The notes below the pieces were generated by a model. That model ran no database searches and was not told the origin of the DNA. It was given only the letters and a program-made list of their open reading frames with translations. Positions 23,511 through 29,027 of a DNA stretch of 64,000 bases are shown piece by piece. Position numbers and translations under genes: made by a program. Position 1 is the stretch's first letter, and each line of letters starts with the position of its first letter. This DNA is from Lysobacter sp. GX 14042 (GTDB taxonomy: Bacteria > Pseudomonadota > Gammaproteobacteria > Xanthomonadales > Xanthomonadaceae), in assembly GCF_021390425.1 (NCBI RefSeq), contig NZ_JAJUWY010000003.1, positions 1 to 64,000 of the forward strand. Direction: 5' to 3'.

Positions 23511-24695
23511 TCAGCCCGCCCGCGGCCCGGCCACCTCCCACACCTCTCCGGCCGGATCGAATTCGGCGGTTTCCATCCGTCCGGCACGCCAGCCGAAACC
23601 ACATACCGCCAGCGGACTCTCCTCCAGTGGGTCCAGCCCGAACGCCTGCTCGATGTCGATCTCGTTGATCGCCGAGGTCACGAACGCGCCCAGCCCCAGC
23701 TCGGTGGCCGACAGGTACAGGGTCTGCGACAGGTGGCCGGCGTCCAGCACCAGCGCGCGGTAGGCCTTGGGATGGTGGCGGTACTTCCAGTAGCTGCGGG
23801 CGAACCGCGGCACCAGCGCCACCAGCACCGGCGCATCGGCGAACCAGTGCTGGCCCGACAGCGCGAGCAGCGCCAGTTCGTCGAGCGGCGCCGCCGGCGT
23901 GGGCAGCGGCTCCAGCGCGTGCTCCACCGGGTGGTAGTGGTACAGGCCGGGCGCCACGTCCTCGACGTTGCGCACCAGCAGGTAGGCACCGGTCGAATGC
24001 AGCCCGCCGCCGGAGGGACTGCCCTTCTTCAGGAACGTGGCGCCCGTGCCGGCATCCACGTGGGCACGGGCGCCGAACACCCGCTCCAGCATCGTGGCGA
24101 AACGTGCGTGGTCCAGCGGCCGCGCGGTATCGAAGTTGCGGCAGGTCGTGCGCCGGACCAGCAGGCGGTCGAAGTCGGCATCCGGCGTGCGCGGCAACGG
24201 CTGCCGTGCCGCCCCGGTCCGGGTGGCCGCCACGTGCGGCGGCGGAGGGCCGAAACGCGACTCCAGGCCCTCGACCGTCAGCAGTCCGGCACGCTCGCTT
24301 TCGCCGGCCCCGTCCACGCCCTGCCAGCGCCCGTGGCGATGCGCCACCGCCGACGGCGTCCACCAGCACAACTCGCGCAGCCGGGCATCGGCATCCGACA
24401 GGGTCGGATCGGCTGGAGCCTCTTCCAGCATCAGGCCTTCCGCGACCAGGCGCGGCACGGCGGCGGCCAGATCGTCGGGCAGCACGCCGGGCTCCAGCCA
24501 ATCCGAAGGACTGGCCCGGCCGAGCAGCTCGCGTTCGGCGGCATCGACCTCCACCGGCGCATCCAGGTGCCCGGCCAGCGCAAGCCAGCGCAGCGTGCGA
24601 AGCAGCCCGTTGCCGCCGGCCAGCAGGTCCTCCAGCGCGAAGCGCATTTCCTCGCGCGGCTCCAGCAGCAGGACCGCGCATCGACGTATCCGCAT
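23511..24695 (-). CDS. SagB/ThcOx-like peptide maturation dehydrogenase
   Basis: A 394-aa FMN nitroreductase-fold protein of the SagB group, which oxidises azolines or similar residues in ribosomal peptides. Residues 1-175 are a variable N-terminal region. The dehydrogenase domain begins with RRTTCR (181-186, FMN phosphate contact), then KKGSPSGGGLHST (223-235), GLYHYHPVEHALEPL, SYWKYRHHPKAYR (301-313) and LGLGAFVTSAINEIDIE. I recognise this as the class named 'putative peptide maturation dehydrogenase' in xanthomonads, from memory. ATG 24695 has a purine-rich AGGGGGA upstream. No YcaO cyclodehydratase lies near. It is divergent from the precursor gene. Confidence 0.85.
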   Translation of the reverse strand: MRIRRCAVLLLEPREEMRFALEDLLAGGNGLLRTLRWLALAGHLDAPVEVDAAERELLGRASPSDWLEPGVLPDDLAAAVPRLVAEGLMLEEAPADPTLSDADARLRELCWWTPSAVAHRHGRWQGVDGAGESERAGLLTVEGLESRFGPPPPHVAATRTGAARQPLPRTPDADFDRLLVRRTTCRNFDTARPLDHARFATMLERVFGARAHVDAGTGATFLKKGSPSGGGLHSTGAYLLVRNVEDVAPGLYHYHPVEHALEPLPTPAAPLDELALLALSGQHWFADAPVLVALVPRFARSYWKYRHHPKAYRALVLDAGHLSQTLYLSATELGLGAFVTSAINEIDIEQAFGLDPLEESPLAVCGFGWRAGRMETAEFDPAGEVWEVAGPRAG

Positions 24696-24737
24696 GTTGC
24701 CCGTCCCCCTTGTGTCCGGCACGTCAGCCACGGCTGC

Positions 24738-24743
24738 ATTATG
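24738..24743 (-). promoter_or_regulatory. Candidate -10 box for the peptide maturation dehydrogenase
   Basis: On the minus strand this reads CATAAT, five of six to the sigma-70 -10, about 43 bp before the dehydrogenase ATG. No matching -35 is seen, so activator dependence is possible. Confidence 0.3.
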
Positions 24744-24859
24744 CTCGGCCCAACCGCGCGCCCGTGCGGCCGACCTGGGGAGGGGAGCCGGCCTACGCGG
24801 TGCCGGATCGACAGCTCCATTGAAGTGGCCGACTGACGGGCGCACTCACGTTGTAGCCT

Positions 24860-24871
24860 GATCATGTGATC
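24860..24871. promoter_or_regulatory. Perfect inverted repeat before the RiPP precursor gene
   Basis: GATCATGTGATC is a 5+2+5 perfect palindrome 36 bp upstream of the precursor ATG, where an operator would overlap or follow a promoter. It contains TGTGA, as in CRP/Clp half-sites, but lacks the second half-site at the correct distance. Its role is inferred from position only. Confidence 0.3.
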
Positions 24872-24907
24872 CGCCTCGAGGCGGCGGCAAGTACAAGGGG
24901 GAAGGGA

Positions 24908-25255
24908 ATGACTGAAAAACGACTGGACCGGTCCGCTCACGAGAGGCTCGCGCCGGAGGTGGCGGACCGACTGCTGGATCTTCTTTCAAGCGACGACGGC
25001 TTTCGCGAGCGGTTCCAGAGTGATCCCGCCGCCGCGCTTCGCGAAGCCGGGCATCCGTCTTCAACAACTGAAGGATCAGGGCGACCTGAAAAAGGGCAGC
25101 CGTACTACTGCATGACGTCACAGGTGCTCGCCAGCAAGGACGAGTTCAGCCGATCGCGCGAAGTACTAAAGGACTATCTCACGCGTCGCACTGACCACGC
25201 CGTGATCTATTACTTCGAAGCCGGGAAGATCGAGGCAATCCTGCGCTCCAAGTGA
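24908..25255 (+). CDS. NHLP-like RiPP precursor (putative modified peptide)
   Basis: A 115-aa putative substrate peptide. Residues 13-46 (LAPEVADRLLDLL, then SDDGFRERFQSDPAAAL) look like a nitrile-hydratase-type leader, the class used by several RiPP systems. A short Ser/Gly/Pro linker (48-66) follows, then a C-terminal region with the only cysteine, Cys68 in PYYCM, and later VIYYFEAGKIEAIL, rich in aromatics. No double-Gly cleavage site is evident. ATG 24908 is chosen over 24866 because of the AGGGGGAAGGGA just before it. The divergent dehydrogenase and the convergent cyclase-like gene match the three-part xanthomonad cassette. The modification and final product are unknown. Confidence 0.8.
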   Translation: MTEKRLDRSAHERLAPEVADRLLDLLSSDDGFRERFQSDPAAALREAGHPSSTTEGSGRPEKGQPYYCMTSQVLASKDEFSRSREVLKDYLTRRTDHAVIYYFEAGKIEAILRSK

Positions 25256-27849
25256 TCTGGCAGGCGGTCACGTGGCCAGGCTGCAAGGAACGCGTTCAGC
25301 GCCAACGCCTGCCCCGTGCTGTTGTCCGCGGCCGCGTGTATTTCGGCCAAGTCCAGCAGCGCCAAGCGTGTGTCCATCACATTGAGTGATTGAAGGACCT
25401 GCGATGCATTTGCCTCGGCGAATGCACGACCGCGGTTGGCAGCGAGCCACCGCGCGTGCTCTTCTGCCTCGGGCAACCGGCCGGATGCTCGCAAAGCGGA
25501 GAGCATGGCCACTCGCGTCTGGACCAACTCCGTGCCGTCCAGTGCTGCGTCCAGTAACTGGACAGCCAGATCGGGCCTGCCAATCAACTCTTGCTCACCA
25601 GCCTCGACCAGCAGCGCAATGTCGTCTACAACAGTGCCTGCCAAGCGTTCCCGCAAGGGACGCAGCTCTTCCATTGCGAGGCGCGCAGGCTCCGTGTGTC
25701 CCGCGCGCTGCGCCAACCAAGCCGCTGCCATCAGCATCGAAGCGTCCCGAACTTCTTGCCCGCGGGTCGTCCTCAGCTGGTCAGCCATCCGTCTGACCAG
25801 ACTCCGGGCGTACTCCGCATCGAATGCTTCAGGAGAAACCACCAGCAAGCTGCCCGCTTCAATCAATGCGAACTGCGTGGCGAGCTCTTCGACCGCAAGC
25901 CCGCGCTCAATTGCCTTACGCATTGTTGGCCAATCCGCCGTGTCTGCTGCAAACGCTGCCCGGTCGATTTCACGAATGGTGTCATTCACTCCATGTCCTG
26001 ACGCAGGGATCCCATCGATTACCTGGTACGCAGCTGCATGTTGGCCAAGCACTGCCTGCGTCCATGCGAGTCGCCGCGAGGAGGTTCCAGGCTGCATCGC
26101 TTCCGCTGCATGGAACCGTTCCTGCGCATCCCGTATACGCCCCTTTACGAGGTGAATACGCCCGACCCGGTCGTGGGCAAAGAACTGCAGCGGGGCAGCC
26201 GGAGCGCCTGAGGCCTCGACGTACGGCAGCGCGTCGTCAAATGCATTGAGTTGAAACAAATGCCACCCTGCATTTGCCTGCCCTGCGTGGTAATCCGGAT
26301 ACATTGAAGCGAGCGTCTTCCATCGCAGCAATGCCAGGCCGGGATCCACCATCTCGGCTTCCCAAGCATCCAGATATAACCGCTCCCGCGGCGGCATCCG
26401 GTCACGCCGCGCCAGCGCGGCATCCAGATGCGGCAGGGCGGACGGCCGGTCGCTCAGCGCAACATGCACCTGGCTGATCGCCAGGTGCGCCAAGGCAAAC
26501 TCACGGTCGATCGCCAGCGCAGCCTCGTACAAGGCGATGGCATCGCGCCATTCACCCTTGGCGAACGCCTCCTTCCCCTGCGCATAGGCCTTCAGTGCAT
26601 CGAGGCTGGACGTGCTCACCTCGGGCAGCGGCGCATGGTCGCGCTCGATGTTCGCGACCGCTTCCCCCAGCCGGGCGCGCAGTGACGTGGTCACTTGGTC
26701 AATCGAGTCCAGCGCCGCCCCCGGGCTACGCGCGTCGGCGAACTCGGTGTAGACGGTGGTCTGGGTGCCCGGCTCTATGACTTCGGCGCTGACGCGCAAG
26801 CGGCCACTGACGTCGGCCACGGTGGGCAGGATCACCGCACGGGCACCGCTGCGCAGGGCGACCTCCGAGGCAGTCGCACGGTCCAGCGCCGCGCCCGGCT
26901 GCAACTGCATCCGCGCGATGGTGTCCCGCACCTTCATGTCCCCCAGCACGTTCACATGCCGCGACTGCTCCAGGCTCACCCGGAAGGCGAGCGCAAGCGA
27001 GTCGTCCAGCAGCGGTTCGCCGGTGAGGTTGCGCACGTCGGCCAGCACCACCCAGTCGCGCTCGCTGAAGGCGATCGCCGGTTGTGGCCGGCCGAGGAAC
27101 CACATCGCCCCCACCACCACCGACAGCAGGGCCACCTGGGCGACCAGCGCCGCCGGCCGCCGCCACAGCGGCAGGTCGCGCCAGGCCTTGGGGCCGCGGA
27201 TGGGCATGCGCAGCGGGGCAATGCCCGGTTCGCCGACCTCGATCACTTCCTGGGCTTCCGGCACGCCCTTGAACCGCCAGCGGCCCCAGGACTTCCAGGC
27301 CAGGTGCTGGCCACGTTCGCCCAACTCGCGCGCGGCGCGGTGGGCAAGTGGCTCGGCCACCGCCGAGAGCAGGATCTGCCCGGGCCGGGCGAGCCCCATC
27401 AGTCGCGCGGCCATCGGCTTGGCCAGGCCTTCCACCTCCAGCGGCTTGGCACCCACGCGCACCGCCTCTTCGCTGTTGCGCCAGGTGAGCACTTCGCCCA
27501 CGTGCAGTCCGGTGCGGGACTTGAGTTCCGCCTGGTGCGGGGCGCCGACCTCGCGCAACCCGCGCGCATAGTCCAGCGCGAATCCCAGTCCGTCGATCGG
27601 CCGCTCGAACAGCAGCAGCATGCCGTCGGAACGGTCGATCAGGCGCCCGTGCCAACGCTGCTGCAGCTGCAGTACCAGGCGGTCGTGGGCGCGGAACAGC
27701 TCGGCGGCGGCGCCGTCGCCGAGCTTCTCGACCAGTTCGGTGGAATCGACCAGGTCGGTCAGCAGGATGGTCCGCAACTGCGGCGGGGTCCGCACGGCGG
27801 CGGGGGGCGGCGTGGCCTCTGTGTTCGCGGTCTGGTCGATGACGCCCAT
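25210..27849 (-). CDS. Putative peptide-modification-system cyclase (class III cyclase domain + TM + TPR)
   Basis: An 879-aa protein. Residues 25-165 are a class III nucleotidyl cyclase homology domain with both metal aspartates (Asp32 in LLTDLVDST, Asp75 in DRSDG). A transmembrane segment lies at about 233-252. A CsgG/TolB-like part follows (VVLADVRNLTGEPLLDDSLALAF), and then about 450 residues of helical, TPR-like repeats. I recall this class as 'putative peptide modification system cyclase', found beside NHLP-type precursors in xanthomonads. Substrate-site residues are unusual (see findings), so cyclase activity is not assured. ATG 27849 lies 7 bp after the GGDEF gene. The 3' end overlaps the precursor gene by 46 bp on the opposite strand. 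Confidence 0.85.
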   Translation of the reverse strand: MGVIDQTANTEATPPPAAVRTPPQLRTILLTDLVDSTELVEKLGDGAAAELFRAHDRLVLQLQQRWHGRLIDRSDGMLLLFERPIDGLGFALDYARGLREVGAPHQAELKSRTGLHVGEVLTWRNSEEAVRVGAKPLEVEGLAKPMAARLMGLARPGQILLSAVAEPLAHRAARELGERGQHLAWKSWGRWRFKGVPEAQEVIEVGEPGIAPLRMPIRGPKAWRDLPLWRRPAALVAQVALLSVVVGAMWFLGRPQPAIAFSERDWVVLADVRNLTGEPLLDDSLALAFRVSLEQSRHVNVLGDMKVRDTIARMQLQPGAALDRATASEVALRSGARAVILPTVADVSGRLRVSAEVIEPGTQTTVYTEFADARSPGAALDSIDQVTTSLRARLGEAVANIERDHAPLPEVSTSSLDALKAYAQGKEAFAKGEWRDAIALYEAALAIDREFALAHLAISQVHVALSDRPSALPHLDAALARRDRMPPRERLYLDAWEAEMVDPGLALLRWKTLASMYPDYHAGQANAGWHLFQLNAFDDALPYVEASGAPAAPLQFFAHDRVGRIHLVKGRIRDAQERFHAAEAMQPGTSSRRLAWTQAVLGQHAAAYQVIDGIPASGHGVNDTIREIDRAAFAADTADWPTMRKAIERGLAVEELATQFALIEAGSLLVVSPEAFDAEYARSLVRRMADQLRTTRGQEVRDASMLMAAAWLAQRAGHTEPARLAMEELRPLRERLAGTVVDDIALLVEAGEQELIGRPDLAVQLLDAALDGTELVQTRVAMLSALRASGRLPEAEEHARWLAANRGRAFAEANASQVLQSLNVMDTRLALLDLAEIHAAADNSTGQALALNAFLAAWPRDRLPDHLERRIASIFPASK

Positions 27850-27856
27850 GCAGACC

Positions 27857-28927
27857 TCAGCCCGATCCGGTCCCGGCATCCTGCCACTCCACCCGGCCAC
27901 CGCCAAGGCGCTTGGCCCGGTACAGGGCGGTATCGGCCAGGGCGTACCAGTCGCCCCATTCCCCGCCCTGCGCCAGCAGGCTGGCCCCGACGCTGAGCGC
28001 GCACATGCGGGGCGGCAGCTGCGGGATGGTGGTCAGGCTGCGCGCGGTCTCGACGATGAAACGGGCGTAGCGGATGGCCTCCGCGCGGCCGTCGGCCTTG
28101 ACCAACAGGGCGAACTCGTCGCCACCCAGGCGGCAGGCGAGGTCGCCGGCGCCGGCCACCGAGCTGAGGATGCTGGCCACGCCCTGCAGCACGCGGTCGC
28201 CGGCGAGGTGGCCGTGTTCGTCATTGATCTGCTTGAAGCCATCGCAGTCGATCAGCAGCAGGCCCAGGCCCTGCGTGGCGCCATTACGCTGGCGTTCCTG
28301 CAGGTGGGCCAGCAGTCCGCGCCGGTTGTACAGGCCGGTCAGCTCGTCGCGCAGCATCAGCGCCTCGGCCTGGCTGAGCTGGTGGCTGGTCGTGCGCAGG
28401 CTGTCCAGTGCGCCCTCGAGCTCGGCGTTGCGCCGACGCAGGCGGCGGATCAGCCCCTGCTCGTTGAGCACCACGCGGGCGATCGCCCGGCGCAGGAAAT
28501 GGGCGACCACCCCGGGTCGCGACTCGACCAGGCGCTGGAATTCCTCGTGGCGGATCTCCAGCAGCTCGCCATCGGCGAGCGCACGCGCCTCGGCGCTGCG
28601 CGCGTGGTCTCCGATCAGCAGGCCGAGCTCACCAAAGAACTCGCGCGGGCCCAGCGACTTGCCAACCAGGTCCTGGCCGAAATCGAGCTCCACCCGCCCG
28701 CTGGTGATCACGTACATCGTGGTCCCCAGATCGCCGCGGCAGAACAGCACCTCGCCCGCGCGCATCGTCCGCGGCCGGGCGACCGTGGCAAACAACGCGT
28801 ACTCGGCGTCCGACAGTTCCGGCTCTCCCGGGTCCCCGGGGGACAGCGGGTTGCCTGTATCGGCAGGAGGCTGCGGCGGCTGCGGGTCGACGCCCGCGCG
28901 CGCAGCAAGTGCTGTAATGCCCTTCAC
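27857..28927 (-). CDS. cNMP-binding domain + GGDEF diguanylate cyclase
   Basis: A 356-aa soluble regulator that probably makes cyclic di-GMP. Residues about 40-155 are a cyclic-nucleotide-binding fold, with the phosphate cassette FGELGLLIGDHARSAEARA retaining the Glu and the Arg-Ser-Ala pair. A coiled linker (LIRRLRRRNAELEGALDSL) leads to a GGDEF domain with DELTGLYNRRGL, RLGGDEFALL and ALYRAKRLGGGRV. The inhibitory RxxD site is GAGD, so product feedback is probably lost. GTG 28927 is the best start I can see; no ATG is near. It lies directly upstream of the cyclase-like gene, which suggests a shared transcript. Confidence 0.85.
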   Translation of the reverse strand: MKGITALAARAGVDPQPPQPPADTGNPLSPGDPGEPELSDAEYALFATVARPRTMRAGEVLFCRGDLGTTMYVITSGRVELDFGQDLVGKSLGPREFFGELGLLIGDHARSAEARALADGELLEIRHEEFQRLVESRPGVVAHFLRRAIARVVLNEQGLIRRLRRRNAELEGALDSLRTTSHQLSQAEALMLRDELTGLYNRRGLLAHLQERQRNGATQGLGLLLIDCDGFKQINDEHGHLAGDRVLQGVASILSSVAGAGDLACRLGGDEFALLVKADGRAEAIRYARFIVETARSLTTIPQLPPRMCALSVGASLLAQGGEWGDWYALADTALYRAKRLGGGRVEWQDAGTGSG

Positions 28928-29027
28928 GCCGGATCCACATGCCTCGGGAACGGCAGCATAGTCTGCCAGACAGGAGTACGCAGTCGACGCGGGTGACCGG
29001 CCGCGGGGAAACCCGCGCAACTCCGTC

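Follow-up and report, generated by a model that had tools for sequence, protein, structure and literature searches.

The window analyzed here, a stretch of 64,000 nucleotides from Lysobacter sp. GX 14042 (contig NZ_JAJUWY010000003.1, positions 1 to 64,000), contains four adjoining genes that encode a precursor resembling those of ribosomally synthesized and post-translationally modified peptides (RiPPs), a SagB/McbC-like dehydrogenase, a predicted transmembrane guanylate cyclase with a tetratricopeptide repeat (TPR) half, and a cyclic nucleotide monophosphate (cNMP)-binding GGDEF protein. The new observation concerns relatives whose cyclase domains and GGDEF proteins are very similar: their TPR halves and peptides can be entirely different, and their dehydrogenases partly so, with the differences forming one block.

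Gene content and distribution of the locus

The dehydrogenase gene (23511-24695, minus strand) encodes a flavin mononucleotide-dependent type of enzyme of 394 residues, with an N-terminal domain (residues ~1-170) and a nitroreductase domain (~171-385). It is divergent from the precursor gene (24908-25255, plus strand), from which it is separated by an intergenic region of 212 bases (24696-24907). In the 115-residue precursor, alignments delimit a nitrile hydratase leader peptide (NHLP)-like leader (~20-48), a linker with C68, an ASK motif (75-77), and a hypervariable tail from residue 94. The 3' end of this gene overlaps by 46 bases that of the convergent cyclase gene (25210-27849, minus strand; 879 residues). 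On the same strand as the latter, the gene for the GGDEF protein (27857-28927; start uncertain, with the frame open to 29200) ends 7 bases before the cyclase gene start. The initial annotation, made from the letters alone, placed the three genes and their orientations correctly, and the nitrile hydratase-type leader it reported is present (SDDGFRERFQSDPAAAL at residues 28-44). An NCBIfam profile search confirmed the families it had named, with scores well above cut-off for the peptide (TIGR04509, 102.4 bits; cut-off 34), the dehydrogenase (TIGR04511, 537.8 bits; cut-off 240), and the cyclase (TIGR04510, 1049.8 bits; cut-off 400). Its three-gene cassette is real but incomplete, the adjoining cNMP-binding/GGDEF gene having been missed.

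We surveyed 151 genomes of the order and, with the dehydrogenase as query, collected the best 80 of 295 loci, among which the top match was in Lysobacter defluvii (92%). The co-occurrence expected from the initial annotation was found: TIGR04509, TIGR04510, and TIGR04511 are each above cut-off in the same 32 of the 151 genomes, with two of the 32 peptide matches being marginal (34.7 bits in G059; 34.6 bits in G136, with a stop inside the match). Of these 32 cassette genomes, 28 have the GGDEF gene next to that of the cyclase and 31 have an orthologue of it (E<1e-134), as compared with 2 of the 119 remaining genomes (3 at E<=1e-50). All four genes are present in 69 of the 80 scan loci, while three lack the GGDEF gene (one on a short contig) and eight hold the dehydrogenase and peptide only, of which five are from Streptomyces, one is from Kribbella, and two lie at contig ends. 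In the six actinomycete loci (L126, L127, L129, L130, L131, L135) the dehydrogenase is ~60% identical to that of the window and is accompanied by one to five peptides; neighbor clustering revealed no further common neighbor among them. This two-gene unit has apparently moved between phyla.

For comparative analysis, 33 loci from the order were combined with the 80 scan loci, each set with one genome per species and with near-duplicates possible across sets; score limits, and the retention of identical cyclases only once, reduced these 113 to 98 with cyclase, dehydrogenase, and peptide. No match to a sigma-70 promoter was found in the intergenic region of the window, and a CRP/Clp-like site matches the intergenic regions (n=98) no better than shuffled sequence (mean best mismatch 3.67 versus 3.66). 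Neither Rfam (gathering threshold) nor tRNA matches were found within the window. The locus sits in conserved chromosomal synteny, with YifB and aceA/aceB-like neighbors.

The probable cyclic GMP relay and the peptide-dehydrogenase pair

Both the cyclase and the GGDEF protein have characterized counterparts in Xanthomonas campestris. XC_0250, a protein of 886 residues with a cyclase domain and TPRs, makes cyclic GMP (cGMP) and not cAMP, and cGMP binding by the linked XC_0249 stimulates its synthesis of cyclic di-GMP (c-di-GMP) (An et al. 2013, PMC3770947). The sections of that paper considered here call the TPR domain uncharacterized and name no input signal for XC_0250, and the main text, in which the terms "peptide" and "XC_0251" are absent, is silent on any peptide or dehydrogenase gene nearby. 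We compared residues through Xanthomonas relatives of 886 residues, with starts chosen by our own scoring, in place of XC_0250, whose own sequence was not among the loci. Residues D41, D71, L73, A150, L157, and A161 of XC_0250 occur at identical numbers in L150, L162, L169, and L172, while L151, L157, L159, and L161 differ solely by an isoleucine at 157. The window cyclase has D45, D75, M77, A154, L161, and A165, five of the six being identical and L73 replaced by methionine. The cGMP contacts of XC_0249 (F73, E90, H98, N145, E146) are at offset 0 in six Xanthomonas loci, and the window GGDEF protein, whose residues 64-184 match PDB 5h5o_A (E 5.5e-41), keeps all five. Over the 92 loci with a GGDEF gene, the F, E, H, and E contacts are conserved in 92, the N in 72, and the RLGGDEF motif in 92. 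Judging by sequence, the two proteins are almost certainly orthologous to the XC_0250/XC_0249 relay, which would place the RiPP-like pair on a pathway from cGMP to c-di-GMP. The earlier statement that no product was characterized holds for the peptide in the literature searched but not for the cyclase and adjoining gene, given these orthologues.

The class III cyclase domain (residues 23-200; 27250-27783) matches Ma1120 and Rv1900c in the PDB and forms the conserved output part of the protein. D32 and D75 are present in all 98 cyclases and R149 in 97; we take these to be the metal aspartates and the transition-state arginine of the class III pattern, D32 fitting the usual metal site of this class. 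The D41 that PMC3770947 calls metal-binding corresponds to D45 of the window and not to the invariant D32, and the assignment made there may have to be re-examined. A transmembrane helix (residues 234-252; 27094-27150) is predicted in 48 of 48 sequences, in which lysine plus arginine amount to 4.2 before versus 2.0 after it. By the positive-inside rule, the cyclase domain is predicted to be inside, and the TPR solenoid (residues 416-874; 25228-26604) and the part that we call TolB-like (our own label, not a family match) would be periplasmic. The structure model (mean predicted local distance difference test score [pLDDT] 90.5; predicted template modeling score [pTM] 0.60) has a helical solenoid from residue 416, and Foldseek returned mostly cyclase domains and repeat proteins. 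Conservation is 0.715 in the cyclase domain as compared with 0.23-0.43 in the fast-evolving TPRs, a putative peptide sensor.

The initial annotation took the cyclase to be part of peptide maturation. This is not supported, given the orthology to a proven guanylate cyclase, the transmembrane helix, the predicted periplasmic location of the TPR half, and the absence of the cyclase beside the peptide and dehydrogenase in Streptomyces and Kribbella (6 of 80 loci). On the basis of orthology, fold, and this absence, we rejected a peptide-cyclizing role for TIGR04510, and the family name "peptide modification system cyclase" misleads.

Two genomes, G106 and G111 (L205 and L204), retain an XC_0249-type GGDEF protein, with YifB directly beside its gene, and lack the cyclase, peptide, and dehydrogenase families, implying another source of cGMP or a cGMP-free role for this protein.

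The dehydrogenase has both the score and the fold of the SagB/McbC/ThcOx family, and its K304-Y305 pair, presumably with the catalytic role of the Lys-Tyr pair in SagB/McbC dehydrogenases, is invariant. From sequence and context, it is quite likely that this enzyme modifies the peptide, for which no solved relative was found by sequence search at E<=1; the aligned peptides have an ASKE-like motif ahead of their hypervariable tails. The fold and the invariant pair would suit a classical azole RiPP, in which the dehydrogenase oxidizes azolines as in the thiazole/oxazole-modified microcin (TOMM) or linear azole-containing peptide (LAP) pathways. However, a YcaO cyclodehydratase is absent from 31 of the 32 cassette genomes, including that of the window. 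In these 31, the SagB-like enzyme hence does not complete azolines made by a YcaO, and we rejected YcaO-dependent azole formation for them. The tail contains cysteine in just 42 of 98 peptides, though serine, threonine, or cysteine in 89, and we consider an azole product highly improbable.

Block polymorphism between relatives

We profiled DNA identity in 500-base windows for seven pairs of loci with swapped types and one control pair. In all seven, the collapse of identity occurs within the cyclase gene, close to the part encoding the transmembrane helix and TolB-like region. L162 and L192, both recorded as X. arboricola, are the one same-species pair, the swaps being mostly between different species: identity is 0.82-0.97 up to the cyclase gene start, then 0.70, dropping to 0.00-0.08 across the TPR half, the peptide, and the dehydrogenase start, with 0.21 and 0.45 over the remaining dehydrogenase, and 0.86-0.96 beyond. 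In L162/L172, a control pair sharing one type, identity is at least 0.91 in every window from -966 onward. Both flanks of the block return mostly to 0.8-0.98 in L091/L095, L156/L164, L162/L192, and L152/L158, with some flank windows lower, down to 0.73, in the pairs other than L162/L192, and with no alignment farther than ~4 kb upstream in L152/L158. In L128/L139, L128/L132, and L183/L196 the collapse point is nearer to the TPR part, and the dehydrogenase is largely kept (0.68-0.82 in most windows). Peptide, putative sensor, and probable modifying enzyme are co-polymorphic between conserved neighbors, the flanks being clearest in four of the seven pairs. TPR, tail, and dehydrogenase are identical between L095 and L164, although their GGDEF proteins differ by 8%; within these two lineages, L091 and L156 represent the other type.

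The window itself differs in this way from L. defluvii (L124). The dehydrogenase side (23526-24784) is 89% identical and the GGDEF gene with the cyclase domain (26809-28990) 79%, while the block from 24785 to 26808, comprising the TPR half, the peptide, and part of the intergenic region, has no blastn match longer than 150 bases. What the swaps share is thus the TPR half plus the peptide. L. defluvii has two peptide genes (L124:8170-9716), one beside a different TPR type and one beside the dehydrogenase; the latter peptide is nearer to that of the window (54 vs 44 identical residues of 115), and this arrangement may be the remnant of a swap. Two dehydrogenases or cyclases, with several peptides, are found in L110 (G110), L116 and L117 (G025), L158, L178, L179, and L190, possibly as two types in one genome.

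Among the 135 pairs with an output-half distance <0.15, TPR and tail are both the same in 62, both different in 64, and discordant in 9 (126 of 135 concordant), by thresholds that were set after the data had been seen and in pairs that are not independent. Six of the nine discordant pairs belong to one Stenotrophomonas group near the thresholds. Concordance is 43 of 49 at an output distance <0.06 and 81 of 89 at <0.10, and the dehydrogenase and tail agree in 122 of the 135 pairs. At least two TPR types occur in 7 of the 12 output clusters having at least two loci.

A putative peptide-signaling locus and its known relatives

A receptor guanylate cyclase that senses a modified peptide would account for the neighborhood, the joint absence, and the swaps. 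We give a probability of roughly 0.58 to the reading that this is a polymorphic peptide-signaling locus, in which a modified peptide pheromone would act on a TPR receptor-cyclase and, through cGMP, on c-di-GMP. The dehydrogenase would oxidize the precursor, guided by the NHLP-like leader, and the processed C-terminal tail would reach the periplasm by an unlinked route. There, the TPR half may bind the tail, as co-replacement and covariation suggest; such recognition appears somewhat more probable than not. The cytoplasmic domain would then make cGMP, which would activate the neighboring cNMP-GGDEF protein to produce c-di-GMP, two steps demonstrated by others for the Xanthomonas orthologues. 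The peptide and TPR half would thereby form a variable, type-specific input to the constant output of cyclase domain and GGDEF protein. The odds are about even that the locus encodes a Gram-negative RiPP-type pheromone with pherotypes, with an NHLP peptide matured by a SagB-like oxidase and sensed by the swappable TPR half of a receptor guanylate cyclase, whose cGMP feeds into c-di-GMP.

Covariation was evaluated with identical cyclases kept once and with distances over the 92 loci having a GGDEF gene; the first alignments covered most of the cyclases (31 of 34), peptides (39 of 44), and GGDEF proteins (25 of 28). The tail correlates best of all regions with TPR residues 501-640 (r 0.73; partial correlation 0.495 given cyclase domain, dehydrogenase, and GGDEF), as compared with -0.21 for the TolB-like part and -0.10 for the cyclase domain (given dehydrogenase, GGDEF, and TPR). 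In a scan of 60-residue windows, the peak is at cyclase residues 481-570 (0.39 with three controls, 0.36 with five), and with five common controls this is the highest value in the three proteins. Within clades, tail-TPR correlations are 0.24, 0.30, and 0.32 at three cut-offs (2, 0, and 0 of 300 permutations). Matrix tests of this kind are liberal when the sequences are related; we gave more weight to the block swaps.

Linkage alone could also underlie these patterns, if an independent peptide and dehydrogenase unit recombines along with the 3' half of the cyclase gene and hitch-hikes rather than binds. The swapped block is contiguous, the stop codons of the peptide and cyclase genes are at most 60 bases apart in 67 of 72 loci, actinomycetes carry the pair alone, and the tail covaries with the dehydrogenase as well. 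However, identity collapses within the cyclase gene and not between genes in seven of seven profiled pairs, covariation peaks at 481-570 and is low (0.06-0.14) at the TPR end physically nearest the tail (781-870), and G111 and G106, which have YifB beside the GGDEF gene, lack all three genes at once. We regard hitch-hiking as a fairly unlikely explanation.

Co-swapped polymorphic blocks are a mark of toxin-immunity loci too. If the locus encoded a RiPP bacteriocin, the peptide would be an antagonist, the TPR half would confer self-immunity or sense the cell's own toxin, and the co-swap would exchange toxin and immunity; this is compatible with the stand-alone actinomycete pairs and with the finding that 8 of the 32 genomes have between two and five matches to the precursor. 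Yet the output half is a second-messenger relay, the synteny is conserved and chromosomal, and the conserved neighbors, judged by eye, include none that is exporter- or immunity-like, making a bacteriocin unlikely.

Several points weigh against the peptide-signaling reading. The model does not yet explain export: the precursor has no obvious signal sequence by eye, though the TPR half is predicted to be periplasmic, and no conserved neighbor is exporter- or protease-like (clusters inspected by eye, with no exporter profile search). The lack of an obvious signal sequence and of a linked exporter would be expected of a cytoplasmic peptide that is never exported but partners the flavoprotein in redox sensing or regulation and tunes the cyclase from inside, as would the linker cysteine, found in 84 of 98 peptides (79 at the aligned column). 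On the other hand, the predicted location of the TPR half is on the opposite side of the membrane, hypervariable tails would better suit an extracellular specificity factor, and 10 of the 98 peptides have no cysteine at all; we consider a purely internal role improbable. The cysteine-free peptides also count against peptide signaling, as no single modified residue is evident, and a search for a conserved one gave none.

Cassette parts also persist in other settings. No cyclase lies beside the peptide and dehydrogenase in the six actinomycete loci, and G091 (L122) lacks the GGDEF orthologue and has an altered cyclase domain (D45Y, R149A, and a gap; D32 and D75 are kept) while retaining five similar peptide genes and the dehydrogenase, so that output has apparently been lost and the input genes stay. 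L097 has a second cyclase-like copy without the cyclase domain. This copy (L097:10935-12857) has 641 residues, with a transmembrane helix and TPRs, and lies beside the dehydrogenase. In addition, the isolated cyclase domain of XC_0250 restored biofilm formation (PMC3770947), indicating that output can do without the TPR half in that setting.

The comparative evidence has its own weaknesses, beyond the thresholds noted above. Co-replacement of neighbors can arise from linkage alone, and conserved flanks are not universal: L128/L139 and L128/L132 are unalignable for ~3 kb upstream of the GGDEF gene, and nothing aligns between the window and L. defluvii beyond 29408, leaving a conserved flank on the dehydrogenase side only. 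Almost every region pair, the leader included, reached 0 of 500 permutations, so this test discriminates poorly. Given all other regions (rank), the tail correlates with TPR at 0.245, with GGDEF at 0.241, and with dehydrogenase at 0.199, and single windows outside the peak reach 0.26 (GGDEF), 0.22 (dehydrogenase), and 0.19 (elsewhere in the TPRs). Within clades, the catalytic domain of the dehydrogenase (0.49, 0.48, 0.31) does as well as or better than the TPR.

If peptide signaling is correct, the locus joins two lines of work, on the peptide families and on the xanthomonad cGMP pathway. In Lysobacter, Xanthomonas, Stenotrophomonas, and their relatives, the input that the XC_0250 pathway still lacks would be found in this system, and what XC_0250-type cyclases sense would become directly testable. 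To our knowledge, the peptide families are known from database models alone, and we know of no other case in which the receptor of a bacterial peptide language, as this would be, is a guanylate cyclase. No published link between the peptide family and the cGMP pathway was found in the open-licence PMC literature, subscription papers being outside the search; one listed paper, PMC6341742, names XC_0249, XC_0250, and XC_0253.

The locus resembles several known systems in part. It shares with the XC_0250/XC_0249 pathway orthologous cyclase/TPR and cNMP-GGDEF proteins, adjacent genes, and conserved residues, and differs in the linked peptide and dehydrogenase, which are absent from the main text of PMC3770947 as far as considered. 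It has full membership in the NCBIfam trio TIGR04509/TIGR04510/TIGR04511, with adjacent genes; the name of its cyclase family suggests a maturation part, whereas the evidence here points to a nucleotide cyclase and adds the GGDEF gene and the block polymorphism. As in the NHLP/proteusin precursors, from what we drew on in Haft et al. 2010 (PMC2887384), a nitrile hydratase-like leader precedes a hypervariable C-terminus, but YcaO is absent in 31 of 32 genomes and no transporter is found among the conserved neighbors; "Xanthomonas" and "Stenotrophomonas" do not occur in the text of that paper. The azoline oxidases McbC, ThcOx, and BmdC share the fold of the dehydrogenase, and the alignments with BmdC and ThcOx include its N-terminal domain; unlike them, it has no YcaO partner.

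Another parallel is the comQXPA pherotype locus of Bacillus, where the kinase part of ComP and ComA are constant while ComX and the sensor part of ComP are variable. The gene families are unrelated: Bacillus uses an isoprenyl transferase, a histidine kinase, and a response regulator, and the locus described here, in a Gram-negative, has a SagB-like oxidase, a guanylate cyclase, and a GGDEF protein. In the part of PMC4408185 considered, comQXP is polymorphic in strains that are near-clonal in gyrA, and the comQ and gyrA trees disagree. The present locus shows a similar division, in which the probable modifying enzyme, peptide, and putative sensor half are variable and the output half is constant.

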